Assembly (NCBI GenBank): GCA_963965975.1
Contig: OZ014411.1
Coordinates: 28,010,249-28,074,248 of the forward strand
Source of the DNA: Xestospongia bergquistia
Taxonomy: Eukaryota; Porifera; Demospongiae; Haplosclerida; Petrosiidae
Direction of reading: 5' to 3'
Length of the DNA stretch: 64,000 nucleotides
Under the pieces are notes generated by a model. The model did not search any database and was not told where the DNA came from. It saw only the letters and a list, made by a program, of their open reading frames with translations. Within the stretch, counting starts at the first letter, position 1. Each line of letters starts with the position of its first letter. Made by a program: the position numbers and the translations under genes. This document shows positions 391 through 61,182 of the stretch, piece after piece.

Positions 391-745
391 AAAAACATGT
401 TGTGTTGCCCAAACGATTCCTACTCGCTCACCCACTCAGGCTTCCACTTAGGCTCCAGGATTCCCTGCTATTGCTAGCTGGGACCGCCACCTGGCTTGGT
501 AACCCTCGTCTTCGCGAGGTAATCCTGGCTGGAGCATCGCCCTAACTTAAAACCAGCCGTACGGGATTCCAGCTCTTAGGGAATATCGCATTCAGGAACC
601 GGGAACCACAAATACACCAGCCTCTTCTCGTTTAAAGGGAGACTACCAGCCCTATCCTAGTCGGCCTTTCGGATACTCCGTAGAGTATGCTGGTAACCAT
701 CTCAGAGGTCTGATGTATTGCAGAACGCTGGCCCACAACACAACC
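391..745 (-). ncRNA. Candidate Pol III-type structured ncRNA, copy 1
   Basis: A GC-rich block of about 350 nt in AT-rich DNA, repeated six times in the window. Read on the minus strand it begins about 745, 30 bp after a TATA box (767-775), and ends in nine T residues (complement of 387-395). The first and last bases form a perfect 9-bp helix (736-744 with 399-407). Inside are a 7-bp helix TACCAGC/GCTGGTA enclosing a hairpin with a cUACGg loop, a hairpin with a GCAA loop, and GGCTGG/CCAGCC and CCTCG/CGAGG helices. Body sequence is almost invariant among copies while flanks are diverged. I do not recognise the RNA; 7SK, SRP, RNase P/MRP, U3 and 5S do not fit. Alternative: a non-autonomous element or a gene-converted repeat. 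Confidence 0.6.
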
Positions 746-6840: not shown

Positions 6841-7329
6841 TTAAGCTGACAAAAAGAACTTGATAAAACTTTCACAAGTCTCTTGATAATCAACAACCCC
6901 ATCTCCATTGGTGTCAGCTTTATTGAAAAGTTCATCGATCGTTTCTTGCTTAATGTTCAATGATTTATGAAAATGCAAGAATTCTTCATAAGATATCACT
7001 CCATCGTTATTAATATCCATGATTTTAAAAACCGCATCAGCTAATCCTTTCACGCGTTCTTTAGCATCTGGCAGAGAAACAATTTTTTTGGCTTGTTCTA
7101 CAAACTCCTCTTCAGTAACTCCTTTATCATCAACTAACGAGATAGCTTTAACAATTTGATAGTAATGCTTTTCCTCATCTGGACCTTCATTTCTATAGGC
7201 AGCCAGTTTTTTAGCTACAATAGCTAAATCTGCGTTATCAACAATATCATTTTTGTCTACATCCAAATGGGAAAAACGCCACTTCATCTTCTTGATCCAA
7301 GTAGGACTGTCAGTAAATGAGGTATCCAT
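6841..7329 (-). CDS. EF-hand Ca-binding protein A (photoprotein/SCP-like)
   Basis: Predicted 162-aa soluble intracellular calcium-binding protein, intronless. Loops: EF1 at residues 23-34 (DVDKNDIVDNAD; Asp replaces the usual Gly at loop position 6), a degenerate second hand around 65-77, EF3 at 105-116 (DINNDGVISYEE) and EF4 at 139-150 (DTNGDGVVDYQE). The N-terminal SPTWIKKMKWRFSHLD resembles the aequorin / coelenterazine-binding / sarcoplasmic Ca-binding family, and the order of three working hands with a dead EF2 fits that group, though at 162 aa it is shorter than aequorin (~190). The start MDTS is chosen because upstream sequence has stops in this copy. Luminescence is not implied. One of five paralogues in the window. 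Confidence 0.9.
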   Translation of the reverse strand: MDTSFTDSPTWIKKMKWRFSHLDVDKNDIVDNADLAIVAKKLAAYRNEGPDEEKHYYQIVKAISLVDDKGVTEEEFVEQAKKIVSLPDAKERVKGLADAVFKIMDINNDGVISYEEFLHFHKSLNIKQETIDELFNKADTNGDGVVDYQETCESFIKFFLSA

Positions 7330-9877: not shown

Positions 9878-10265
9878 CAAAAGGATGCTCAGTCTCATCA
9901 GCTATAGCAGTGGTGATATGTATAGTTATAGTAATAGTGCCAGCAGCTATATACCAAGCAAGGAGGTACTCAAATTTTTAAATAATTACCATTTTAACCA
10001 TAACTAATATATGTAATATCATGTCTTAATTTTTTAAACATATTGTCAATACGAAAATTTGAATACATCTAATAAACCAATCAAACTTGTTAAACAATTT
10101 AATTATTATCTGATAAATTTATGCTATGCTTTGTAATACCAATTGCATGTTTCATATATACCATACAACTAAAAGGAAGTTCGTGGAATGTTCTCTATAA
10201 AACACTGATCAGTTATACCAACATTCCTTCCCAGTAGATTTCATTAAAAAAGTTAAGATTTATAA

Positions 10266-10609
10266 AAAAAACATGTTGTGTTGCCCAAACGATTCCTACT
10301 CGCTCACCCACTCAGGCTTCCACTTAGGCTCCAGGATTCCCTGCTATTGCTAGCTGGGACCGCCACCTGGCTTGGTAACCCTCGTCTTCGCGAGGTAATC
10401 CTGGCTGGAGCATCGCCCTAACTTAAAACCAGCCGTACGGGATTCCAGCTCTTAGGGAATATCGCATTCAGGAACCGGGAACCACAAATACAGGTTTAAA
10501 GGGAGACTACCAGCCCTATCCTAGTCGGCCTTTCGGATACTCCGTAGAGTATGCTGGTAACCATCTCAGAGGTCTGATGTATTGCAGAACGCTGGCCCAC
10601 AACACAACC
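10266..10609 (-). ncRNA. Candidate structured ncRNA, copy 2 (12-nt deletion)
   Basis: Same element as copy 1. TATA box complement at 10631-10639, predicted start at 10609, terminal helix 10600-10608 with 10275-10283, T-run from the A-run 10264-10271. A 12-nt internal deletion near 10493 removes most of the block between the AACCACAAATACA and GTTTAAAGGG stretches. It is the only copy with an indel in the body, so it may be a weakened copy. Confidence 0.55.
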
Positions 10610-10630: not shown

Positions 10631-10673
10631 CCTTTTATATGTACTGCAGATTTTGTCTTAATGCTCTTGTGGG
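10631..10673 (-). promoter_or_regulatory. TATA box and PSE-like block of ncRNA copy 2
   Basis: TATAAAAGG on the minus strand (10631-10639) plus the conserved upstream block to about 10673, as in copy 1. Confidence 0.45.
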
Positions 10674-11120
10674 ACGCAACCCTGTCGGTTATGAATCTCA
10701 TTAAAGGTAACTGTGGCTATGTTTAATGGCAGTCTGCGATAGCACCGACGAAGTAAAAAGCCTGTTAAAATAACTAAAACCAAATACTTTTAGTTAAAGT
10801 TAAATACTTTAAGTCACTCGTAAGCAACTAGAAACCTATGGCTTCACAAGCAACTACATAATAGTTATTGAATCGTCATACTGAAAATTTGTTTTGTTTT
10901 AAGAGTTTTGCAAATTTGGAGGGACACATCTACAATATCCAATATTCACTATCAACAATGGGACACAGCTTAATGTAATACAAGTTTCATCTTGGATACA
11001 AAAATCAAAAGTCAACAGAAAACTGCCATCCAATAAGAGATGCATATTATTTTATTATGTTGATATATCTTTATCAAAATAATTTTATAAATTAATATTA
11101 GTGCAAACTACACATGCAAT

Positions 11121-16180: not shown

Positions 16181-16669
16181 TTAAGCTGACAAAAAGAACT
16201 TGATAAAACTTTCACAAGTCTCTTGATAATCAACAACCCCATCTCCATTGGTGTCAGCTTTATTGAAAAGTTCATCGATCGTTTCTTGCTTAATGTTCAA
16301 TGATTTATGAAAATGCAAGAATTCTTCATAAGATATCACTCCATCGTTATTAATATCCATGATTTTAAAAACCGCATCAGCTAATCCTTTCACGCGTTCT
16401 TTAGCATCTGGCAGAGAAACAATTTTTTTGGCTTGTTCTACAAACTCCTCTTCAGTAACTCCTTTATCATCAACTAACGAGATAGCTTTAACAATTTGAT
16501 AGTAATGCTTTTCCTCATCTGGACCTTCATTTCTATAGGCAGCCAGTTTTTTAGCTACAATAGCTAAATCTGCGTTATCAACAATATCATTTTTGTCTAC
16601 ATCCAAATGGGAAAAACGCCACTTCATCTTCTTGATCCAAGTAGGACTGTCAGTAAATGAGGTATCCAT
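16181..16669 (-). CDS. EF-hand Ca-binding protein B (identical to A)
   Basis: 162-aa protein identical to copy A, including the Asp at position 6 of the EF1 loop. Promoter-like ATAAAAG and 5' leader are the same. It is either a very recent tandem duplicate or an assembly duplicate. Same family call: three canonical hands (residues 23-34, 105-116, 139-150) and one degenerate. Confidence 0.9.
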   Translation of the reverse strand: MDTSFTDSPTWIKKMKWRFSHLDVDKNDIVDNADLAIVAKKLAAYRNEGPDEEKHYYQIVKAISLVDDKGVTEEEFVEQAKKIVSLPDAKERVKGLADAVFKIMDINNDGVISYEEFLHFHKSLNIKQETIDELFNKADTNGDGVVDYQETCESFIKFFLSA

Positions 16670-18703: not shown

Positions 18704-19604
18704 TCTATAACATAATGATAATATTGTCACGAAAAGTTTTGTCCTAGGACAAAACAATTCAACCATTCTTTTGAAATTTTTGGTTCTTTGTTGTAAATTT
18801 TTGTCCTACCAGACCAAAATGGCTAATTTCAATTGTTCTAACCTTAGAAGAATGCAGTAGACTGACAAACAATACTTGTATAATATCCAGGAAAGTATCA
18901 AAGAAAGCTGGTGACTGCAGTAACGTGTTACTTTTGAAAGAAGAGCTAAGAAGAAGGACAGAGGCAGAGAGAGAGATGACTTTGATCTATTAGATAAAGT
19001 TTACCTGTATATTGTGGAAAAAACATTTAGAAGAATACACTGGTACTAGAAATAGACAAATAAGGACAAAGACAATGTTATCTTAGCTGGAGCATTACCA
19101 CTCACTTCAAACTATTAGACACTTTTTATATCCATCAACCTATTTTTATAGTTCTTTTTGTTAGTGGTGAATTATAGCAGAGCCTATAGAAAATCTACTT
19201 GACTCTAGTATTGTTCAAAAGGATGCTCAGTCTCATCAGCTATAGCAGTGGTGATATGTATAGTTATAGTAATAGTGCCAGCAGCTATATACCAAGCAAG
19301 GAGGTACTCAAATTTTTAAATAATTACCATTTTAACCATAACTAATATATGTAATATCATGTCTTAATTTTTTAAACATATTGTCAATACGAAAATTTGA
19401 ATACATCTAATAAACCAATCAAACTTGTTAAACAATTTAATTATTATCTGATAAATTTATGCTATGCTTTGTAATACCAATTGCATGTTTCATATATACC
19501 ATACAACTAAAAGGAAGTTCGTGGAATGTTCTCTATAAAACACTGATCAGTTATACCAACATTCCTTCCCAGTAGATTTCATTAAAAAAGTTAAGATTTA
19601 TAAA

Positions 19605-19960
19605 AAAAAACATGTTGTGTTGCCCAAACGATTCCTACTCGCTCACCCACTCAGGCTTCCACTTAGGCTCCAGGATTCCCTGCTATTGCTAGCTGGGACC
19701 GCCACCTGGCTTGGTAACCCTCGTCTTCGCGAGGTAATCCTGGCTGGAGCATCGCCCTAACTTAAAACCAGCCGTACGGGATTCCAGCTCTTAGGGAATA
19801 TCGCATTCAGGAACCGGGAACCACAAATACACCAGCCTCTTCTCGTTTAAAGGGAGACTACCAGCCCTATCCTAGTCGGCCTTTCGGATACTCCGTAGAG
19901 TATGCTGGTAACCATCTCAGAGGTCTGATGTATTGCAGAACGCTGGCCCACAACACAACC
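19605..19960 (-). ncRNA. Candidate structured ncRNA, copy 3
   Basis: Full-length copy; body identical to copy 1 by eye. TATA complement 19982-19990, predicted start 19960, terminal helix 19951-19959 with 19614-19622, T-run from 19602-19610. It has the full internal segment that copy 2 lacks. Confidence 0.6.
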
Positions 19961-19981: not shown

Positions 19982-20024
19982 CCTTTTATATGTACTGCAG
20001 ATTTTGTCTTAATGCTCTTGTGGG
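19982..20024 (-). promoter_or_regulatory. TATA box and PSE-like block of ncRNA copy 3
   Basis: TATAAAAGG (minus strand, 19982-19990) and the conserved block up to about 20024, spaced as in the other copies. Confidence 0.45.
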
Positions 20025-20462
20025 ACGCAACCCTGTCGGTTATGAATCTCATTAAAGGTAACTGTGGCTATGTTTAATGGCAGTCTGCGATAGCACCGAC
20101 GAAGTAAAAAGCCTGTTAAAATAACTAAAACCAAATACTTTTAGTTAAAGTTAAATACTTTAAGTCACTCGTAAGCAACTAGAAACCTATGGCTTCACAA
20201 GCAACTACATAATAGTTATTGAATCGTCATACTGAAAATTTGTTTTGTTTTAAGAGTTTTGCAAATTTGGAGGGACACATCTACAATATCCAATATTCAC
20301 TATCAACAATGGGACACAGCTTAATGTAATACAAGTTTCATCTTGGATACAAAAATCAAAAGTCAACAGAAAACTGCCATCCAATAAGAGATGCATATTA
20401 TTTTATTATGTTGATATATCTTTATCAAAATAATTTTATAAATTAATATTAGTGCAAACTAC

Positions 20463-21777: not shown

Positions 21778-22266
21778 TTAAGCTGACAAAAAGAACTTGA
21801 TAAAACTTTCACAAGTCTCTTGATAATCAACAACTCCATCTCCATTGGTGTCAGCTTTATTGAAAAGTTCAGCGATCGTTTCTTGCTTAATGTTCAATGA
21901 TTTATGAAACTGCAAGAATTCTTCATAAGATATCACTCCATCGTTATTAATATCCATGATTTTAAAAACTGCATCAGCTAATCCTTTCACACGTTCTTTA
22001 GCATCTGGCAGAGAAACAATTTTTTTGGCTTGTTCTACAAACTCCTCTTCAGTAACTCCTTTATCATCAACTAACGAGACAGCTTTAACAATTTGATAGT
22101 AATGCTTTTCCTTATCTGGACCTTCGTTTCTATAGGCAGCTAGTTTTTTAGCTACAATAGCTAAATCTGCGTTATCAACAATACCATTTTTGTCTGCATC
22201 CAAATGGGAAAAACGCAATTTCATTTTCTTGATCCAAGTAGGACTGTCAGTAAATGAGGTATCCAT
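21778..22266 (-). CDS. EF-hand Ca-binding protein C
   Basis: 162-aa paralogue starting at MDTS. The frame stays open upstream to 22395, but that extension reads as leader sequence and is interrupted in copies A and B, so I use the conserved Met. EF1 is DADKNGIVDNAD with the standard Gly; EF3 DINNDGVISYEE and EF4 DTNGDGVVDYQE are unchanged. Differs from A at about ten residues spread over the protein. The coding frame is preserved despite substitutions, which supports a working gene. Confidence 0.88.
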   Translation of the reverse strand: MDTSFTDSPTWIKKMKLRFSHLDADKNGIVDNADLAIVAKKLAAYRNEGPDKEKHYYQIVKAVSLVDDKGVTEEEFVEQAKKIVSLPDAKERVKGLADAVFKIMDINNDGVISYEEFLQFHKSLNIKQETIAELFNKADTNGDGVVDYQETCESFIKFFLSA

Positions 22267-22961
22267 CTTGACTAGTGTATGTAGATCCTCAATACAGCAG
22301 AGTAGATGAAATGAGAAGAGAAATGATGAAGAAGGAAATAACACATGCTTTATAAGCGTGGATATATTGGATATATATAAATTAAATTCATACATTAGGA
22401 TGATGGGTGTGTTCTCGATTATTATTATTTAAATTTGTCTGCTTTTCATTTTTTTTTGAGTTTATTGCATCACTTAACATAATTAGGTAAACATTTACAG
22501 TGTGAATATAACTGATTATTGCTGATTTCTGGGTTGATTATAACAATTATATGAAGATTAAAAGACTGAAGAAATTAGTTAATCCTTATGTTGACATTAT
22601 TATGTAGTAGTAATCTGGTTATAATTAAGTACATATTTTAAATTAATTATTTTAATTTATCAGTATATTAAAGGATAATCATGTTAATAGTTAATTAAAT
22701 ACCTATATTTAATTCATTTGTGCTGGTATTATTTAATTTCATTTGATTTATATTGAGTCAAATATTAAAAGCAATTATTCTTGCTAATTGCATACAACCA
22801 TAACTAGTGTGTCTGTAATTACAGTATATGCAACATGATATTGTCATGTTTATATATATTATATACATTAATATTATATATACATATATATACATATTAT
22901 ATATATATATATATATATAGAACAGAATTAAAGGACAAAAGAACAGAGCTCTCGCTGTGTT

Positions 22962-23052: not shown

Positions 23053-24263
23053 CTATGTCCTATCCCTAGAGAAATGTGCTATAGAGTACTTGTTTTTGTG
23101 TCGGCATTTTGAGACGAGTTCGGATCTTTTATTCAGGGTGGTGGTTTTGTCGGCGTTGATGATAGAGAGCTTTTCCGTTAGGCAAAGGTTGCACTGCTTT
23201 GTTGTGTTTGAGTAGGCTTGTGCCCTTTGGTTTATTGACCAGGTAATTTTGAATTCCTCACCTTCTTTCTTCAATTGCCAAACATACTTCGATAGTTCTG
23301 TGCTATTTCCGTATTTCTCGTGCCTAATTGATTGCATGTGGTTGGAATATCTCTGCTTGAAGGCGTGTTCGGTTAGGCCTATGTACACCTTTTTCTCATT
23401 TCTTCTCATGTTTTCGACTTCTGCGTTGTAGACGATGTTATTGGACTGGCATTCGCCGTTTAATAGGCATAGGTCTTTTTTTCTTTTTCGGCAGTTGCAG
23501 GGTTTCTGCGTGGGCGTGCTGGTGTCTTTTGAGACCTCATTATTGTGTGCTTTGATGATGTTGGCTAGGTTTGGCATGCAGCTGTAGCTGACCTTAACAG
23601 TGTTTTTGTTGAATATTTTGTGTAGCCTTGAGTTTTCCGGGAAATGCTTGGCGATCAGCTTTAGGAATTTTTGGCCTACGTTCGTTGATACGTTTTTGCT
23701 GAATGGTGGGTTGAACCATATGATGTTGCGCTGTCGGTTACGTTTGCTCTTTTTTGGTTGCTCGTCGCTGTAATGTAGGCTTTCCGAGTAGCCGCAGGAT
23801 TTGAGTGCATCTGCATAGAGGGGGGCAGCTTGGTTGAAGATTTCTTTGTCATGCGAGATGTCGGAGATGCGTCTGCTGATCGAATCTGGCAGGTTCTTGA
23901 TGATGTTAAGTGGGTGGTTGGACTGCTTTTGGATGTAGACTGGTTTGTCATTCGGCTTTCTATAAGGGTAGTACTTACCATTGTTCAAGTTTAGGGTGAT
24001 GTCAAGAAAATTTACAACTTTTAGGTTGGCTTGGATGGTGATTCTAAGGCCAGTCTCTTTGAAGATCTTAGTTATATCCTTTTTGATTTTGTCTGCTTTA
24101 CTGCCTGAGGTGTTTTTAAAAGCTGCAAGCCCATCGTCTCTGTACAAGCCTATCTTGCTTATATCATACTTGTTTGCAAGGGTGTTGAGTACGTAGATGC
24201 CAACCAGCTCACAAACTTCCGCTCCGTCGTAGCTTCCCATCGTCACGTCGAACAGGCTGTTTC
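23053..24263 (-). pseudogene. PLE RT C-terminal part, Zn motif and GIY-YIG endonuclease
   Basis: About 400 residues of open frame from REGNSLFDVTMGSYDG onward. It contains the RT catalytic-box equivalent (IGLYRDDGLAAF), the FLDITLNL region, a Cys motif (CNCRKRKKDLCLLNGEC) and a GIY-YIG nuclease start (IVYNAEV...KKVYIGLTEHAF), ending HFSRDRT then stop. This order, RT then Cys motif then GIY-YIG, is typical of Penelope elements. The first ~35 residues of the longest open frame are the tail of the inserted retrotransposon, including an Ile run coded by its (ATA)n end. Confidence 0.88.
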
Positions 24264-24422
24264 CCTCTCGTTTTTTTATTATTATTATTATTATTATTAT
24301 CATTTTACAGAACAATAATAGAATTATAAAAGTGAGACGAATGGTAAGTGATAGAAATAAGAGGGGCATTGAACTGAGGGCCTATTAGTAAGTCCTACTA
24401 ATAGCCTAAGTGATGAAGTTGA

Positions 24423-26582
24423 TTAAAGTGATTTAGTGAATTGTGAGGGAAGGGAACAAAGAGAACATTTGCTGCATGGGCAAACAAAATGGAATGAGCA
24501 TGGGTTGGAGGGGTCAAAGTTGTTGGTAAAATAGACCCAAAAGAATTTTGTTAGCTGTTTCTTGATAGTGTTAATAGATAAGTCTAGATCAATTGAGGGA
24601 AGGGCATTCCACAGTCTTGGAATTTGATTAAAGAAAAAATGGCGAGAGTGATTAGTAGAGGAAATGGAATGAATCATTTTATGGGAACTAGCAGATCTAG
24701 TGTCAGAAGAGCTAAAAGAAATAAGACTATGAATATCAATACAACAATGAGAAGACTGGAGACAACTAACCATAAAGATTATGTCATTTAGTTCCATGGA
24801 TAGCATGAGAGGCAGTATGTGAAGAGAAGTGAGGCGAGACTTGTAGTCGGAGAGAAAGTCATTTGGGATAAATTTAGAAGCACGCCTTTGAATATTCTCA
24901 ATTTTGATAATGTCCTTTATCAGATGGGGACGCCAGATTTGAGAGCCATAGAGAATCTGTGGTCTAATAAGAGAGATGTAAAGAGTCCTTTTGGTAGAGA
25001 TAGAGCTGATATGATGGAATGAATGGCGGATGAGGCCAAGGGTCTTATATGCTTTGGCAGAAATATAGTCATAGTGATTACTCCAGGATAGATCCCTGGA
25101 CATTATAACACCTAGATCACGGTGACATACCATGTCAGAAATTGAATCACCATTCAGATAATAGGTAGAAGAGGAAGAAGATGGAGAGCGAGAGAAGTGT
25201 AGAGCAGCACATTTAGTGGAGTTAAAGGACAAATTCCATGCCGCACGCCACTCTGAGATGGAGTCAAGGTCTCTCTGAAGAAGCAAGGAGTCATTTGGGC
25301 AACTGATAGGTCTGTAACATTTTGTGTCATCAGCAAACATAAGAATAATTGAAGAGGAGACAGTAGACGGCAAGTCATTGATGTAAATGATGAATAGGAT
25401 GGGGCCTAAGATGCTGCCCTGAGGAACTCCAGAGATAACAGGAAGTTTGTCAGAAAGGCTGTTGTTGATAGAGACACACTGAGAGCGAGACCACAGGTAT
25501 GATTGGAAAAGTTCCCAGAGGCTACCTGTAATGCCGATGGACCAGAATTTAAATAAAAGCTCATTGTGAGGAACTGTATCAAAAGCCTTTCGTAGGTCAA
25601 GATAGATACAGTCCGTTTTGGATCTCTGGTCAAAGGAATTGAAAGTCGTACACAGGAATAGAAGTAACTGATGAATAGTGGAGTGGTGCTGGAGAAAACC
25701 AAACTGAGAGTCAGAAATACAGGAGGAAACATGATCGATAATATTGTTATAGATTAGTCTCTCCAGGACTTTAGAGATGGAGCACAAAAGAGAGATAGGT
25801 CTATAGTTATGTACTAGAGATTTGTCTCCTGATTTAAAAATAGGGATGATACAGTGTAGACACCATTCAGCAGGGATAGAGTGAAGACGAACACAGAGAG
25901 AGAAGAGGTGATGAATAGGACGACATAGTGAAATAGCACAGTACTTAAGAACATTAGGGCCGATACCATCAATACCCATAGCTTTGTTAGGGTCGAGGGC
26001 AGCAAGTACTTCATATACATCACTCTCTGAGAAAGTAATCTCACTAATAGAGACACCATTTACTGGAAAATCTTGCAGGGAGGGTAAAGAGTAGTTGCGT
26101 CTGGTAAAAACAGAGTGAAAGTATTGATTAAATAAATTGGCCTTTTCCATGTCAGAACTTGCTTCTGAAGAGTCTGAACGAATGGTAGCTGGCAGGGAGT
26201 TATGTGTGGTTAGACAATGCATGTAGTTGAAGATTTTGTAGTTTTTATTTGCAGCAAATGTAGAGACAAGGTGAGATTCATAGTTTAATTTTGCCTCAGC
26301 TATATTAGCTTGAAGGAGAGATTCAGATGAGGCTAGATTAGATAAATTTTGAGGAGAAGGAGTTGATCTAGCTTTCTTACGAAGTGAGTGAACTTTATTC
26401 AAATGATTTTGGATGCTTGCAGTAAACCACTTGGGGCGTTGATGTGCCCGGAGTTTGACCTTAGAAACAAACAAACTCATAGCAGTTAAAAGCGATTGTT
26501 TGAGAGACATCCAACAGGTTTCAACATCATTGAGTTGAAAAATAAAATCAAAATTGTAATCAAGAAGATAAGAAGGAAAGAC
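24423..26582 (-). pseudogene. CR1/L2-like ORF2, reverse transcriptase part
   Basis: Continues ORF2 in another frame after a one-base change near 26570-26585 (endonuclease frame ends ...DWDGLSFLSS; RT frame resumes YLLDYNFDFIFQLNDVE). Visible RT blocks: [49 protein letters not shown] and catalytic FADDTKC. The C-terminus ends FHFVCPCSKCSLC, a Cys motif seen in CR1-like ORF2 proteins. The Met at 26615 belongs to the shifted frame upstream and is not a real start. About 720 residues. Confidence 0.88.
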
Positions 26583-27318
26583 CATCCCAATCAGCTTTGG
26601 AATAGTCATATACATATCGGGGAGATATCAGGTTAGGGTTGGGTCTTGATTTGGCAATAGAAAATGATACTATAAAATGATCAGATTGAATACTTAGTCC
26701 TTGGTGAGGATGAATAGTGAGATTGTTGATATAATTATCGCAGTTGGTCAAAACTATGTCAAGAATATTCCCTTTGATATGTGTAGGGGCTGACACCAGT
26801 TGCTCCAGATTGAGATCAAATGCAAGATCGCAAATCATGGTAGATATGGAGGAGGAGCTAGACAGTGTATCCCAGTCTATGTCTGGGCAATTGAAATCTC
26901 CTGTAATAATAATGTGATAATTTGCAGAAGAGAGAGTAGACAGATAAGATAATAAGTTCTGGAAGTAGACTTGACTAGAGTTGGGTGAGGAGTAAACAAC
27001 ACAGAGGATGAAAGGTAGAGGAAGGATATTTTTGATTTCAACAGTAATGACTTCTAAGTTTGAGGGAGAGGAAAGAAGAATACATTGCATACTGTGATGT
27101 ACAGCCAGAAGAACCCCACCACCCCTGGTATTCCTGTCTTTACGATAAAGAATAAAGTTGTTGGGCAGAATTTCGTTGTCATATATATAACTAGACAGCC
27201 AGGTTTCAGTGATGGCATAGATATCAAAAGGGGATGAGTAGACAAATGATTGGAATTGAAGAAGTTTGTTTACTAGACTACGTGAATTCCAGAGACAAAT
27301 TTTGAGATTGTCAGTAAG
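26560..27318 (-). pseudogene. CR1/L2-like ORF2, APE endonuclease part
   Basis: Begins directly after the ORF1 stop and in the same frame: LTDNLKICLWNSRSLVNKLL, with no ATG before the domain. APE-type signatures: AITETWL, RGGGVLLAV, GDFNCPDIDW and SDHFIVSF. It ends with a stop at 26560 caused by the frame change described for the RT part. The open frames beginning with Met at 27090 and 27245 are partial or shifted views of this domain. Confidence 0.87.
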
Positions 27319-28470
27319 TCAATCCTTGGAGGTACTAACCCTGGTGGAACTTTGATCAGGAACTGAAGTTGGGGAAGGCGTTAGATCGTCTAATACTGGA
27401 GCATGTTCTTCTCTGACTGAGGAGGTCCTTTGGTTAGGGGCATCATCACCAAGCTGAGGATAGCGTTGAAACATGAAATCGATAACTTGACCATGCAACT
27501 TCTTATTGATGAAAATGCAAGAGCCTCGAATTTTTACCTCGCTTTTGCTGTGCCCTGTCTGTATTAATGACCAGCGTTCCTTCAGGAGGAGAGCTTCTTG
27601 TGCTCTATCAGTAGGTGACAGATCTGGCTTAATAATGAAAGATTTGTCCAGTCTGTTTCTTTTAGAAAGGACCTTTGAGACGTCTGCAGCTCTGTTGAAT
27701 TTTACCTGGAGTGGACGGGGACGTTTGAGTTTCTCTTGGTATCTTCCAAGCCGGAGAGAGTCTCTAATTGAGTATTCGTTAAAGGAACTGTCTAGTTTGG
27801 ATATGATGGAGGTGACACTTTTAAGATCAGCCATAGCCCTGTTGAATTTGGAAGTGCCTTTTGGGCATTCCTTTATTCCATATATTACAATGTTGAGATT
27901 TCTGTCTATATCAGCAGGCTTAATCGACTTGTTGGCTGAGGTAGAATTGGTTGGAATCTGCGGGACTTGCAAAGTGGGAGGCTGAGTAGACTTGGAAATA
28001 TTAGAAATGAGTTTAACTGAGATTTCAGAAAGAGAATCATTAATGCGCTGAATTTCTGACTGAACAGGAGGAGAGACATCACAGTTAATGGACAACTCAA
28101 GGGAAGAAAGTTGGCTCTGAAGAACAGAGACTTCAGTCCTAATTTCTTCAATCTGAGAGAAAACAGATTTTATACAAAATGGGCAGACATAAGGATAAGT
28201 TGGAGCCAGAGAAGAAGTAATGCCAACACATTTGCTGTGAGACCATTGAGAACAAGCCTCACACTCAACCATGTGACCAGAGTCTTCTGATAAGGAACAG
28301 ACACAATGAACAGATGAGGATGGATTTGAAGGCTTGAAATTCTTATTCTTATTAGCTAGTTTATCCTTATTAGCTAGTTTATCCTTCACTCTCTGTTTAT
28401 TTGAAACAGTTCGACGTAGTTGATCATCAGAAACAACACCATCAGAAGACAAGCCCTTGTGATCTGCCAT
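27319..28470 (-). CDS. CR1/L2-like ORF1 protein with PHD finger
   Basis: Intact 383-aa frame. Residues about 55-100 form a PHD-type Zn finger (CVCSLSEDSGHMVECEACSQ, WSH, C...C), followed by a coiled-coil-like region about 105-165 and a basic, RNA-binding-like segment (NLNIVIYGIKECPKG, then LGRY...RPRPLQVKF) of the kind found in CR1/L2 ORF1. ORF1 proteins bind the element's RNA. The stop is TGA followed by CTT and then by ORF2 in the same frame. Confidence 0.85.
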   Translation of the reverse strand: MADHKGLSSDGVVSDDQLRRTVSNKQRVKDKLANKDKLANKNKNFKPSNPSSSVHCVCSLSEDSGHMVECEACSQWSHSKCVGITSSLAPTYPYVCPFCIKSVFSQIEEIRTEVSVLQSQLSSLELSINCDVSPPVQSEIQRINDSLSEISVKLISNISKSTQPPTLQVPQIPTNSTSANKSIKPADIDRNLNIVIYGIKECPKGTSKFNRAMADLKSVTSIISKLDSSFNEYSIRDSLRLGRYQEKLKRPRPLQVKFNRAADVSKVLSKRNRLDKSFIIKPDLSPTDRAQEALLLKERWSLIQTGHSKSEVKIRGSCIFINKKLHGQVIDFMFQRYPQLGDDAPNQRTSSVREEHAPVLDDLTPSPTSVPDQSSTRVSTSKD

Positions 28471-31739: not shown

Positions 31740-32228
31740 TTAACCAGAGAAATAGAATTTGATAAAACTTTCATAAGTTTCTTGATAATCAATGACCCCA
31801 TCTCCATTGGTGTCAGCTGCTTTGAAAAGCATATCAATTGCTTCTTGTTTAATGTTTAATGATTTATGAAACTGCAAAAATTCTTCGTAAGATATAACTC
31901 CATCTTTGTTAGCATCCATGATGTTAAAAACTGAATCAATCAATACTTTTACACGTTCTTTAGAATCTGGTTGAGAAACAAATTTTTTTGCACGTTGGAT
32001 AAACTCCTCTTCAGTAACATCTTTTTCGTCAACTAACGAAGTAGATTGAATTACTTTAAAGTAGTGCTTTTCCTCATCTGGACCTTCGTTTCTATAGGCA
32101 GCTAGATTTTTAGCTACAATAGCTAAGTCTTCATTATTAACAACGCCACTTTTGTCTACGTCCAAAAGAGCAAAACGCCATTTCATTTTCTTGATCCAGG
32201 TAGGACTGTCAGTAAACGAGGTATCCAT
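31740..32228 (-). CDS. EF-hand Ca-binding protein D (most diverged)
   Basis: 162 aa. EF1 DVDKSGVVNNED (Asn at loop position 9), EF3 DANKDGVISYEE, EF4 DTNGDGVIDYQE; all keep the bidentate acid or Asp at position 12. The EF2 region LVDEKDVTEEEF is degenerate. About 35-40 differences from A, mostly outside the loops, so this is the oldest paralogue here and is evidently kept under constraint. The conserved ATAAAAG promoter block of A, B and E is not seen upstream. Confidence 0.9.
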   Translation of the reverse strand: MDTSFTDSPTWIKKMKWRFALLDVDKSGVVNNEDLAIVAKNLAAYRNEGPDEEKHYFKVIQSTSLVDEKDVTEEEFIQRAKKFVSQPDSKERVKVLIDSVFNIMDANKDGVISYEEFLQFHKSLNIKQEAIDMLFKAADTNGDGVIDYQETYESFIKFYFSG

Positions 32229-35121: not shown

Positions 35122-35610
35122 GTAACTATGAATGAATTATATAACATTAAGTTCTCTGTTAACATAGAACATGATGTGGTACATATTCAGATAAATATTA
35201 TGTGTCTTATTTGTCTGATTTAAGATCAATCATTAAAAGAATTATGTTATTCAAACATTATTTGACTAAATCATAAGAAAAAGAACTCTAATTGGGTATG
35301 TGTATTATTTGAACCTTTTGTTTCTGTAATTTGTTTAAAAATGGAATAATGTTTAAAAAAGTGTGGGATCACTGGTATCTTAGTTGTAGGAGTAACAACT
35401 ACATATCAACAACATTACTATAGTGATATTTATTATAATATATTTGTCACTACTGTAATAAACTATTTTAGATGATTCTTATTTTTAAGTCAATATAAAA
35501 TTAAATACGATAAAATTATTATAATCAGTAGTGTGTGTTTCCAGTTCACCGATGTCAGTAATCATATTCATAGTTGGCTTTAATGAGATTCATGAGCGTA
35601 CACAGTTGCG

Positions 35611-35654
35611 CCCCACAAGAGCATTAAGACAAAATCTGCAGTACATATAAAAGG
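35611..35654 (+). promoter_or_regulatory. PSE-like block and TATA box of ncRNA copy 4
   Basis: CCCACAAGAGCAT (from about 35611) through AAAATCTGCAG is conserved in all copies; TATAAAAGG is at 35646-35654, 30 bp before the predicted start at 35676. Between TATA and start, the ~20 bp vary at several sites between copies, whereas TATA and the RNA body hardly vary. That pattern fits a promoter plus transcript better than a plain repeat. A further conserved TAATGAGATTCAT lies at 35581. Confidence 0.5.
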
Positions 35655-35675
35655 AAACGAAAACCACCTTGGATA

Positions 35676-36030
35676 GGTTGTGTTGTGGGCCAGCGTTCTG
35701 CAATGCATCAGACCTCTGAGATGGTTACCAGCATACTCTACGGAGTATCCGAAAGGCCGACTAGGATAGGGCTGGTAGTCTCCCTTTAAACGAGATGAGG
35801 CTGGTGTATTTGTGGTTCCCGGTTCCTGAATGCGATATTCCCTAAGAGCTGGAATCCCGTACGGCTGGTTTTAAGTTAGGGCGATGCTCCAGCCAGGATT
35901 ACCTCGCGAAGACGAGGGTTACCAAGCCAGGTGGCGGTCCCAGCTAGCAATAGCAGGGAATCCTGGAGCCTAAGTGGAAGCCTGAGTGGGTGAGCGAGTA
36001 GGAATCGTTTGGGCAACACAACATGTTTTT
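35676..36030 (+). ncRNA. Candidate structured ncRNA, copy 4 (plus strand)
   Basis: The only plus-strand copy. Terminal helix GTTGTGTTG (35677-35685) with CAACACAAC (36014-36022), then ATG and a run of ten T (36026-36035), a typical Pol III stop. Internal helices: TACCAGC with GCTGGTA around the ATACTC-TACG-GAGTAT hairpin; GGCTGG with CCAGCC; CCTCG-CGAAGA-CGAGG; and CCC-A-GCTA-GCAA-TAGC-A-GGG. Compared with copy 1 I see two substitutions in the body. It lies upstream of SAMHD1-like sequence, as do copies 5 and 6. The function is unknown. Confidence 0.62.
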
Positions 36031-36065
36031 TTTTTATAAATCTTAAATTTTTTAATGAAATCTAC

Positions 36066-36365
36066 CTACATAACATGTTACTATGACCAAAGAACAACTA
36101 AACCATGTCATGCTGTTACATACACATAAGGACTATACTGATAACATAAACTTATTAGAAATAGCTAAAGACTTTGTTTCCTTTAACGACAGACGAATTA
36201 ATTTTTTGGTCATTTTTGATTCTTTAATAATATAATACAACTAATTATAAGGTCACCCCCCCCCCCCCCCCCAACTCAAAGTTCATTCCTACCCCCCCTT
36301 GTCATACATTGGGCAACACAACATGTTTTTTTAAATAAATTTTGATTTATTTAAAACTACCTGTT
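36066..36365. repeat. Inserted repeat ending in a second ncRNA 3' end
   Basis: Relative to the flank of copy 1, about 290 bp are inserted between two CTACCT motifs. The insert begins with a piece shared (inverted) with the GC-rich insertion at 8.8 kb, contains a run of 17 or so C at about 36256-36272, and ends with TTGGGCAACACAACATG plus a T-run (36309-36332), a duplicate of only the last ~20 nt and 3' flank of the ncRNA. Confidence 0.55.
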
Positions 36366-39738: not shown

Positions 39739-40227
39739 TTAAGCTGACAAAAAGAACTTGAAAAAGCTTTCACAACTCTCTTGATAATCAACAACCCCAT
39801 CTCCATTGGTGTCAGCTTTATTGAAAAGTTCATTGATTGCTTCTTGTTTAATGTTTAATGATTTATAAAACTGCAAATATTCTTCATAAGATATCACTCC
39901 ATCATTATTAATATCCATGATCTTAAAGCCTGCATCAGCTAATTCTTGCAAACGTTCTTTGGCATCTGGCAGAGAAACAAATTTTTTGGCTTGTTCCACA
40001 AACTCCTCTTCAGTAACTCCTTCTTTATCAATTAATGAGATAGCTTTAACTATTTGATAGTAGTGCTTTTCCTCATCTGAACCTTCATTTCTGAGGGCAG
40101 CTAGTTTTTTAGCTATAATAGCTAAATCTGCATTATCAACAATACCATTTTTGTCTGCATCCAAATGGGAAAAACGCCATTTCATTTTCTTGATCCAAGT
40201 AGGACTGTCAGTAAATGAGGTATCCAT
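39739..40227 (-). CDS. EF-hand Ca-binding protein E
   Basis: 162 aa from MDTS (the frame extends upstream to 40293 but the conserved Met is preferred). EF1 DADKNGIVDNAD, EF3 DINNDGVISYEE, EF4 DTNGDGVVDYQE intact; EF2 region LIDKEGVTEEEF degenerate. ALRNEGSDEEK replaces AYRNEGPDEEK. A CACGTG box at 40291-40296 and the ATAAAAG block lie about 65-85 bp upstream. Partner genes: the secreted Cys-rich gene lies divergent at 41.8 kb. Confidence 0.9.
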   Translation of the reverse strand: MDTSFTDSPTWIKKMKWRFSHLDADKNGIVDNADLAIIAKKLAALRNEGSDEEKHYYQIVKAISLIDKEGVTEEEFVEQAKKFVSLPDAKERLQELADAGFKIMDINNDGVISYEEYLQFYKSLNIKQEAINELFNKADTNGDGVVDYQESCESFFKFFLSA

Positions 40228-52378: not shown

Positions 52379-53054
52379 CACAATTAGCGTTCAATTATGA
52401 CCGGAACATGAAGTCAAATATAATTAAATGTCTCGCAAGAATTGGTCATTGTGCTGACTCAGTCTACCCTGTACAAATAAACATGTATATGTTTATTGTA
52501 GTATATGACATTGTAATATCATAGTATTAAGAGAAGAAATCTATAATTTTTTTCTTGTTTCAAACTTGACTAGCAATAAGTGAACAGCAAATACATGTAA
52601 ATGTATTTATTTCATATATAAAAAAGTAACATGAAAAACATTGTTATTAATTTCGCATTAAAGTATGGTGTTTTGTTACAGGCTATATCTAGACACTTAA
52701 AAATATAAATAATGTAATATTAATTGCTCTTAAAATACAATCTATATTAGTGGTATTATGACTTCAATCATAATCATACTAACATATCTTAAATATCATG
52801 TCTTGAATTTTTATTAGATTCTCAATATCAGGATTTCAATGTGTCTATATATTAAACAAGTCAAACCAATTTAAAAATTATTATATGAAAAAAATTATGC
52901 TAATAACATTTTATGAAATTTTCTTTGTCAGTTTTATGTTTGTACTGTAATACTAATTGCATATTTTGTATATACCATACAACTTACGCCATGACAGTCA
53001 GTTTTTTATAAAAACAAACAATTTAGAAAAATACTTTAAATCATTTAAATTTAA

Positions 53055-53410
53055 AAAAAACATGTTGTGTTGCCCAAACGATTCCTACTCGCTCACCCAC
53101 TCAGGCTTCCACTTAGGCTCCAGGATTCCCTGCTATTGCTAGCTGGGACCGCCACCTGGCTTGGTAACCCTCGTCTTCGCGAGGTAATCCTGGCTGGAGC
53201 ATCGCCCTAACTTAAAACCAGCCGTACGGGATTCCAGCTCTTAGGGAATGTCGCATTCAGGAACCGGGAACCACAAATACACCAGCCTCATCTCGTTTAA
53301 AGGGAGACTACCAGCCCTATCCTAGTCGGCCTTTCGGATACTCCGTAGAGTATGCTGGTAACCATCTCAGAGGTCTGATGCATTGCAGAACGCTGGCCCA
53401 CAACACAACC
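53055..53410 (-). ncRNA. Candidate structured ncRNA, copy 5
   Basis: Full-length. TATA complement at 53432-53440 (TATAAAAGA here), predicted start 53410, terminal helix 53401-53409 with 53064-53072, T-run from 53053-53060. Three body differences from copy 1 by eye, two of them shared with copy 4. It lies about 0.7 kb upstream of SAMHD1 gene 2 and points toward it. Flanks on both sides are clearly homologous to, but much more diverged from, those of copies 1-3. Confidence 0.6.
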
Positions 53411-53431: not shown

Positions 53432-53474
53432 TCTTTTATATGTACTGCAGATTTTGTCTTCATGCTCTTGTGGG
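53432..53474 (-). promoter_or_regulatory. TATA box and PSE-like block of ncRNA copy 5
   Basis: TATA at 53432-53440 and conserved block to about 53474 on the minus strand, with one change relative to copy 1 (ATGAAGACA for ATTAAGACA). Confidence 0.45.
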
Positions 53475-53479
53475 GCGTA

Positions 53480-54022
53480 CTGTGTTGTGCTATGAATCTC
53501 ATTAACGGAAGCTATGAAGTGATTAGTAGCATCAACGAACTGAAAACACTGTTAAAATGATTAAAACTAAAACTACATCTTATTAAGGGCAAATAATAAA
53601 ACTAGTCCTACTTAAGCAAAATAAAACAAATAATTTTTATCATATTTCAATTTTATAGGCCTTAAAACAATCATTACTTAAACACTCTTCCTCATTATCT
53701 TTTGTTCCTTCTATCTAAATTTATAGCAGCTTCCTTAGTTCCTAGAAAGAGGTGAAGATCCATTTTATCTCTCTTCAGTAAGTGTAAGATCTTCAGGTAT
53801 TTCTAATATTAACATCTCAATTGTACACTGATCTACAATGTCCTGATATTTGGTAGTTTGTTAAAGCCTTTGCTGTTATGATGTCTATATACATTTCAAT
53901 GACCTGAAATCATTTTCTTCATACTGACCATATAGTATAGACATAGTATTCACCTGTAGTCCATTGTATTGAGACATATAATAGATGACATAGACAGTGG
54001 TTGTTTCTATTCCCTGCAGTTT
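53480..54022. other. ncRNA copy 5 upstream flank, no gene
   Basis: Non-coding by inspection. The same sequence is in unit B at 60625-61182. Its first ~100 bp is distantly similar to 830-930 of unit 1. Confidence 0.5.
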
Positions 54023-59500: not shown

Positions 59501-60196
59501 CACAATTAGCGTTCAATTATGACAAGAACACGAAGTCAAATATAATTAAATGTCTCGCAAGAATTGGTCATTGTGCTGACTCAGTCTACCCTGTACATAT
59601 AAAACATGTATATGTTTATATCTATTGCATCTTATTGTAATATATGACATTGTAATGTCATAGTATTAAGAGAAGAAATCTATAATTTTTTTCTTGTTTC
59701 AAACTTGACTAGAAAAAAAATGAACAGCAAATATATGTAAATGTATTTATTTCATAAATAAAAAGTAACATGAGAAACATCGTTATTAATTTCGCATTAA
59801 AGTATGGTGTTTCATTACAGGCTATATCTAGACACTTAAAAATATAAATAATGTAAATATTAATTGCTCTTAAAATACAATCTATATTAGTGGTATTATG
59901 ACTTCAATCATAATCATACTAACATATCTTAAATATCATGTCTTGAATTTTTATTAGATTCTCAATATCAGGATTTCAATGTATCTATATATTAAACAAG
60001 TCAAACCAATTAAAAAATTATTATATGAAAAAAATTATGCTAATAACATTTTATGAAATTTTCTTTGTCAGTTTTATGTTTGTACTGTAATACTTATTGA
60101 ATATTTTGTATATACCATACAACTTACGCCATGACAGTCAGTTTTTTATAAAAACAAACAATTTAGAAAAAATACTTTAAGGCATTTAAATTAAAA

Positions 60197-60553
60197 AAAA
60201 AAACATGTTGTGTTGCCCAAACGATTCCTACTCGCTCACCCACTCAGGCTTCCACTTAGGCTCCAGGATTCCCTGCTATTGCTAGCTGGGACCGCCACCT
60301 GGCTTGGTAACCCTCGTCTTCGCGAGGTAATCCTGGCTGGAGCATCGCCCTAACTTAAAACCAGCCGTACGGGATTCCAGCTCTTAGGGAATATCGCATT
60401 CAGGAACCGGGAACCACAAATACACCAGCCTCTTCTCGTTTAAAGGGAGACTACCAGCCCTATCCTAGTCGGCCTTTCGGATACTCCGTAGAGTATGCTG
60501 GTAACCATCTCAGAGGTCTGATGTATTGCAGAACGCTGGCCCACAACACAACC
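60197..60553 (-). ncRNA. Candidate structured ncRNA, copy 6
   Basis: Full-length, body identical to copy 1 as far as I can read. TATA complement at 60575-60583, predicted start 60553, terminal helix 60544-60552 with 60207-60215, T-run from 60193-60203. About 0.7 kb upstream of SAMHD1 gene 3, same direction. The ~20-bp spacer between TATA and start differs from the other copies at three or more places while the body does not. Confidence 0.6.
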
Positions 60554-60574: not shown

Positions 60575-60617
60575 CCTTTTATATGTACTGCAGATTTTGT
60601 CTTCATGCTCTTGTGGG
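60575..60617 (-). promoter_or_regulatory. TATA box and PSE-like block of ncRNA copy 6
   Basis: TATAAAAGG (minus strand, 60575-60583) and conserved upstream block to about 60617. Confidence 0.45.
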
Positions 60618-61182
60618 GCGTACTGCGTTGTGCTATGAACTCATTAACGGAAGCTATGAAGTGATTAGTGCATCAACGAACTAAAAACACTGTTAAAATG
60701 ATTAAAACTAAAACTACATCTTATTAAGGGCGAATAATAAAACTAGTCCTACTTAAGCAAAATAAAACAAATAATTTTTATCATATTTCAATTTTATAGG
60801 CCTTAAAAACAATCATTACTTAAACACTCTTCCTCATTATCTTTTGTTCCTTCTATCTAAATTGATAGCAGCTTCCTTAGTTCCTTCCTAGAAAGAGGTG
60901 AAGATCCATTTTATCTCTCTTCAGTAAGTGTAAGATCTTCAGGTATTTCTAATATTAACATCTCAATTGTACACTGATCTACAATGTCCTGATATTTGGT
61001 AGTTTGTTAAAGCCTTTGCTGTTATGATGTCAATATACATTTCAATGACCTGAAATCATTTTCTTCAGATTGACCATATAGTAGTATACATATAGTATTC
61101 ACCTCATCTGTTAGGTAGTCCATTGTAGTGAGACATATAATAGATGACATAGACAATGGTTGTTTCTATTGCCTGCAGTTTA

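Follow-up and report, generated by a model that had tools for sequence, protein, structure and literature searches.

The window, by which we mean the whole 64,000-nucleotide stretch of DNA analysed here, contains six copies of a G+C-rich element (53% G+C in the body compared to 31% for the window), all of them present where a previous reading made from the sequence alone (the sequence-only reading) had placed them. The copy starting at 35676 was taken as the reference. Its parts, a partial repeat close to it and the bodies of the other five copies are the following:

35579..35593, + strand: DSE-like box TTTAATGAGATTCAT (-97), conserved in the 82-copy alignment and with a similar box upstream of both U6 genes
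35611..35643, + strand: PSE-like block CCCCACAAGAGCATTAAGACAAAATCTGCAGTA (-65), delimited by the copy alignment and the U6 comparison
35646..35653, + strand: TATA box TATAAAAG (-30), a TATA being present here in 78 of 82 copies
35676..36022, + strand: putative RNA body of 347 nt with a 9-bp helix joining its ends, from the alignment and the consensus structure
36026..36035, + strand: T-run resembling a Pol III terminator; 81 of 82 copies have four or more T close to the end
36309..36354, + strand: partial repeat of the body 3' end and T-run, downstream of the reference copy (22 nt exact; 47 columns at 85%)
399..745, - strand: copy body (DSE 827-841, PSE 778-810, TATA 768-775, T-run 387-395)
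10275..10609, - strand: copy body with a 12-nt deletion (DSE 10691-10705, PSE 10642-10674, TATA 10632-10639, T-run 10264-10271)
19614..19960, - strand: copy body (DSE 20042-20056, PSE 19993-20025, TATA 19983-19990, T-run 19602-19610)
53064..53410, - strand: copy body (DSE 53492-53506, PSE 53443-53475, TATA 53433-53440, T-run 53053-53060)
60207..60553, - strand: copy body (DSE 60635-60648, with one base missing, PSE 60586-60618, TATA 60576-60583, T-run 60193-60203)

Four of the copies are 99.4-99.7% identical to the reference and the one at 10266, which carries the deletion, 96.3%. The six-copy alignment agrees with the description of about three substituted sites (body positions 30, 121 and 161) plus one 12-nt deletion. 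In all six the word TATAAAAG starts 30 nt upstream of the first body base, the block [CT]CCCACAAGAGCAT.AAGACAAAATCTGCAGTA occupies the position expected for a PSE (-65..-33) and 8 to 11 consecutive T come after the body. The 9-bp helix joining the ends (bases 2-10 with 339-347), the cUACGg loop and the GCAA loop, originally recognised by eye, are found both in the sequence and in a single-sequence fold. The flanks had been described as strongly diverged, and this holds between the three contexts in which the copies lie but not within each of two tandem duplications, where they are 95-99.6% alike. The copies at 391, 10266 and 19605 are inside one tandem duplication of ~9.35 kb, the 1.3 kb around them being 98.6-99.6% identical, and those at 53055 and 60197 belong to a second one, about 7.1 kb apart and with 95.2% identity over 1.8 kb.

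Similar ORFs are located between the RNA copies (window positions 6841-7329, 16181-16669, 21778-22395, 31740-32228 and 39739-40227). One scanned member of this ORF family is an EF-hand protein, and two of the similar ORFs, in the 9.35-kb duplication, encode identical proteins. The window also includes a retrotransposon-like region at 23053-28470 on the minus strand, where one ORF (24423-26615) encodes a reverse transcriptase and another (27319-28470) a PHD-finger protein.

The family extends well beyond the window. Searching the 146-Mb genome with a 34-mer core (up to 3 mismatches) gave 295 sites on both strands and 0 sites for the control, which was the same pattern reversed. A whole-body search, in which the best 40 of 409 candidates were scored, gave 42 matches, corresponding to 40 full-length copies at 99-100% identity and two fragments. 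Such a number of dispersed and nearly identical copies, about 300, is unusual for type-3 genes. Contig C1 had 78 core sites among the matches listed (the first 100 of the 295), and among these listed sites 35 of the 77 distances between C1 neighbours were shorter than 12 kb compared to 2.5 expected at random. From 13.80 to 24.45 Mb, C1 had 0 listed copies for the 29.5 expected under a uniform distribution; this region, element-free among the sites listed, contains 23 of the 26 scored 5S matches. Elsewhere on the same contig (C1:7829231-7847089), U2 matches (7829231, 7839369 and 7841731) are intermixed with element copies (7836108 and 7847056), so that snRNA-type genes share a cluster there. 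Partial fragments were found near several element copies, and in an alignment of 50 bodies the subfamily markers appeared mixed between copies, which suggests exchange between them.

We aligned 82 distinct copies together with their flanks. The main comparison used the 76 whose bodies were at least 95% like the reference, and within them the 2499 pairs with an outer-flank identity below 0.55. In this set mean pairwise identity was 0.986 for the body, 0.92 for the PSE-TATA block and 0.915 for the DSE, compared to 0.44 and 0.73 for the first and second spacers and 0.30 for the outer flanks. All 3321 pairs of the 82 copies gave similar figures (body 0.965, PSE-TATA 0.89, DSE 0.88, spacers 0.45 and 0.71, outside 0.35). 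The TATA was present in 78 of the 82 copies, the T-run in 81, the PSE in its strict form in 70 and the strict DSE in 68. Among 6480 ordered copy pairs, homology ended on the 5' side at the edge of the DSE (-105..-95) in 2247 and at the edge of the PSE (-80..-60) in 2141, and on the 3' side 10-15 nt past the body in 2373. Only L064 and L042_1818 lack a recognisable promoter, and of all 82 bodies theirs are the two most decayed. A good PSE-TATA block was retained by three of the six bodies below 95%, and the overall correlation between body and promoter was weak (Spearman 0.27, p 0.014, n 82).

The same upstream layout is found at known genes of this genome. Both U6 genes that were scored are preceded by a [GT]T[TC]AATGA.ATTCAT box, a [CT]CCC..AA block and TATAAAAG, as is the element. 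The spacing of PSE and TATA in U6 is within 1 nt of that in the element: in the two U6 genes the CCC is at -63 and the TATA at -29, and in the element the AATGA.ATTCAT box is at -97 to -95, the [CT]CCC block at -65 and the TATA at -30. Over the 40 bases directly upstream of the TATA, element and U6 match at 21-26 positions, for a mean of 11-12 with random 40-mers of the window, of which 0-7 in 20000 were as good, in a pool that included the element's own six copies. Furthermore, related promoter elements were seen upstream of the U2, RNase P and MRP genes. Of 14 reference-gene upstream regions read, 12 entered the motif count; the SRP gene and a weak RNase P hit (L096), where the U6-type layout was not seen by eye, were left aside. 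TATTCA in either orientation was present between -77 and -101 in all 12, the CCC block, by a simple pattern, in 10, and a TATA-like word also in 10. Genome-wide, the U6-type promoter pattern occurs at 20 sites and its reversed control at 0. These sites include at least two U6 genes and at least two element copies, and one exact promoter (C15:3600620) falls at neither of the two listed U6 genes. Further exact or near U6-type promoter sequences (C8:830547, C13:1515697, C13:1854078, C14:1059482/1060804/1061349 and others) mark candidate loci for 7SK and other type-3 genes.

As is established, type-3 Pol III promoters have the DSE and the PSE in common with Pol II snRNA promoters and differ from them by the TATA (PMC6004067). 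In this genome the TATA alone cannot separate the two polymerases, because four of the six U2 genes are preceded by a TATA-like word at -31. With the discriminating value of the TATA weakened in this way, the T-run past the end of the body is therefore the main sign of Pol III. All in all, the Pol III type-3 assignment made in the sequence-only reading is supported by the DSE-like box, the PSE-like block and the TATA common to the element and both scored U6 genes.

For the analysis of RNA structure 50 distinct bodies were aligned. Under covariation-weighted scoring the consensus has a helix between the 5' and 3' ends, a long 5' arm and a 3' arm with the GCAA hairpin. The 5' arm pairs columns 18-41 with 122-144 and bears, further in, additional helices and hairpins of the UNCG and GAAA types. 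This structure pairs 99.1% of 5934 cells, compared to 98.4 (sd 0.1) in shuffles and 34-44% when it is slid along the alignment. Three pairs, accounting for 23 cells, had changed on both sides, within one genome and with a structure derived from the same alignment: columns 3/372 (UA to GC or the reverse) in 18 sequences, 153/349 (GU and CG) in 2 and 157/345 (GC and AU) in 3. Actually, 18 of the 23 double-changed cells represent one subfamily difference. Three double-changed pairs were equalled in 21 of 500 shuffles, and the number of further pair types in 499 of 500. In 19 of 48 sequences, base 2 of the body does not pair with its counterpart. Loop changes fit the hairpins: UACG and UUCG are exchanged, and in place of CGAAGA there can be a longer stem that carries UUCG. 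Run with default settings on this alignment, RNAalifold gave a different fold that lacks the end helix, has a covariation term of +0.41 kcal/mol and contains a covarying pair of its own (187/208, both sides changed in 6 sequences). The folding energy of one copy was modestly better than that of shuffles (z -1.57, 5 of 100 as good). We conclude that the RNA structure is probably under selection, with two alternative consensus folds remaining. The proposal of a functional RNA under selection gains from the compensatory changes and the conserved blocks, within the limits of one genome.

Rfam 15 had no match to the element at the gathering threshold, and at E values up to 10 it gave nothing credible, only two weak matches to sRNAs, RT-16 (E 5) and Qrr (E 5.8). 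The known RNA genes of the genome lie elsewhere. There are at least two U6 matches at loci separate from the element and, away from it, at least one match to the Metazoa SRP (226 bits), at least one to RNase MRP, at least three strong and one weaker over the cut-off plus one below it to RNase P, and at least 13 to U2 (12 over the cut-off); at least 26 5S matches are at loci other than those of the element. These counts are lower bounds because only the best candidates were scored. The Metazoa SRP match and the presence of a HEXIM gene characterise the genome as animal-like. RNase P RNA is itself multicopy, with three strong matches ~8.6 kb apart (C5:8258235-8275789). Element-related DNA was absent from phage records, viral contigs and bacterial and archaeal genomes, collections not expected to hold animal relatives. 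None of four sequence words chosen in the body and in its subfamilies occurred in 5.39 million open-access papers, and in topic searches of the literature no animal Pol III RNA was recognised as the element's RNA. Several other classes were discarded: a C/D snoRNA (no C box in the body by a simple pattern), an Sm-class snRNA (no Sm site by a simple pattern), a protein gene (longest stop-free stretch of 37 codons on the plus strand and 65 on the other) and a group I intron (judged by its motifs, and with no Rfam match). Words of the H-box type (ANANNA) occur at six body positions and are uninformative about an H/ACA snoRNA, for which there was no Rfam match either.

We think it likely that these copies are a multicopy family of Pol III-like type-3 genes encoding a structured RNA not described so far, which would be an RNP scaffold kept in many copies for dosage. 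The gene status of the family is well supported as far as sequence patterns go. Transcription by Pol III, initiation at the G next to the end helix and a role as scaffold of an abundant RNP are what we infer from them. The unit would be self-contained within ~460 bp, comprising the distal box, the PSE-like block, the TATA, ~347 transcribed nucleotides and the T-run. Pol III would be recruited as at U6, by TBP bound to the TATA and a SNAPc-like factor bound to the PSE, the RNA would start at that G and the polymerase would stop at the T-run. The RNA would then fold closed, with paired ends and hairpins with UNCG and GNRA loops, and serve as scaffold of an abundant RNP, the many copies providing dosage as the 5S genes do. 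Since the start signal is of the U6 type, the RNA is probably an abundant working one. Inside 44 of the 50 distinct bodies there is one run of 4 T (position 194 for the window copy), and this run speaks somewhat against Pol III, which it could stop early. Four T can partly stop Pol III, the signal being weak, and the absence of an internal T-run is not a strict defining feature of type-3 genes. Our confidence in the Pol III gene reading is slightly lower because of this run. We are evenly divided about the further step, that the copies, ~300 of them and under selection in this animal lineage, encode an abundant Pol III RNA of a class not yet described, acting as scaffold of an RNP. The copies would then outnumber those scored (lower bounds) for U6, SRP, RNase P, MRP and 5S genes.

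One could also think of a selfish repeat, a mobile or amplifying DNA unit that had captured a U6-type promoter and a structured RNA and spread recently. The 295 sites, which lie on both strands and are near-identical wherever their sequence was read, the partial fragments near several copies and the fairly sharp edges of the unit would fit such a repeat. However, U6 has the same box at its edge, and recent spread does not produce spacers as diverged as 0.44 identity next to a conserved body and conserved promoter blocks; the spacers being within the unit, they would be alike in a young repeat. Retroposition would not carry an upstream promoter along, and many of the copies are locally clustered (35 of 77 C1 neighbour distances under 12 kb vs 2.5 expected). 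Direct repeats were sought in 81 copies between the segments at -150..-92 and 12-100 nt past the body, and no excess was found: a mean of 6.43 for a copy's own flanks and 6.41 for mismatched flanks, with repeats at least 9 long in 3 of the 81 compared to 5.9% in mismatched flanks. The 11-nt repeat flanking the copy L053 is in keeping with chance for 81 copies, as 11 was reached in 0.25% of the 6480 mismatched pairs. A simple consensus scan of one body gave no internal A or B box. Of the signs that the sequence-only reading had named as speaking against its own proposal, the hundreds of copies exist (295 sites), but an excess of target duplications was not found and there are compensatory changes, in one genome. 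We consider the selfish repeat unlikely, and local duplication together with exchange between subfamilies explains the spread and the likeness of the copies better than a mobile unit. The tandem 9.35-kb and 7.1-kb duplications of the window and the mixed subfamily markers, which suggest exchange, could even be taken to mean that these are non-functional segmental repeats kept alike by gene conversion, with no selection on a transcript. Gene conversion alone, however, explains neither DSE and PSE-TATA blocks conserved between diverged spacers nor the pair-preserving changes, and to this explanation we give the lowest probability.

A lineage-specific 7SK RNA, the regulator of P-TEFb, amplified to many copies, would agree with the length class, the U6-type promoter and the ends able to pair, and HEXIM is encoded in this genome. 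Actually, 7SK RNA is unaccounted for here, because HEXIM is encoded and the Rfam 7SK model finds nothing in the genome, in a search whose controls also found nothing. The 7SK 5' hairpin has been described as having a GAUC motif bound by HEXIM (PMC8406779). Against a 7SK identity, the body of the 35676 copy contains no GATC, neither consensus fold has a terminal 3' hairpin, the permissive Rfam scan of the element (E up to 10) gave no 7SK match, there are 295 core sites, and other U6-type promoters exist that could drive 7SK. We consider this identity unlikely, and the reading as type-3 Pol III-like genes for an undescribed RNA is the one that we retain.

To our knowledge, animals have few known Pol III RNAs with an external promoter, and most of these are ancient and of low copy number. 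An RNA of ~347 nt encoded at ~300 sites with a conserved promoter would indicate a strong need for this RNA and an RNP not yet listed. In addition, the alignment provides a footprint-based definition of the DSE, PSE and TATA of this genome, usable to find other snRNA-type genes including 7SK.

Compared with known systems, the element resembles SINEs and 7SL-derived repeats in being present as hundreds of dispersed Pol III-type units, but its promoter is upstream, a simple scan of one body gave no A or B box, target site duplications were not in excess in the stretches tested, and it has no match to the SRP model. Telomerase RNA is reportedly transcribed from a Pol III type-3 promoter in Hymenoptera and would thus share the possibility of an external Pol III promoter, but the element has hundreds of copies and no CTAACC-type template in its body, CTAACC being a repeat that may not be the telomeric one of this genome. 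7SK is of the same length class and has an external promoter and ends that can pair, whereas the element lacks GATC, has no terminal 3' hairpin in the predicted folds, exists in hundreds of copies and has no Rfam match. RNase P and MRP genes of the same genome are at other loci and their models do not match the element, but they also have external promoters with related elements and a TATA. U6 differs in the size of its RNA (~105 nt compared to ~347), in gene number (at least two compared to 295 core sites) and in its Rfam model, which the element does not match, but it has the DSE-like box, the PSE-like block, the TATA and the T-run that are found in the element.
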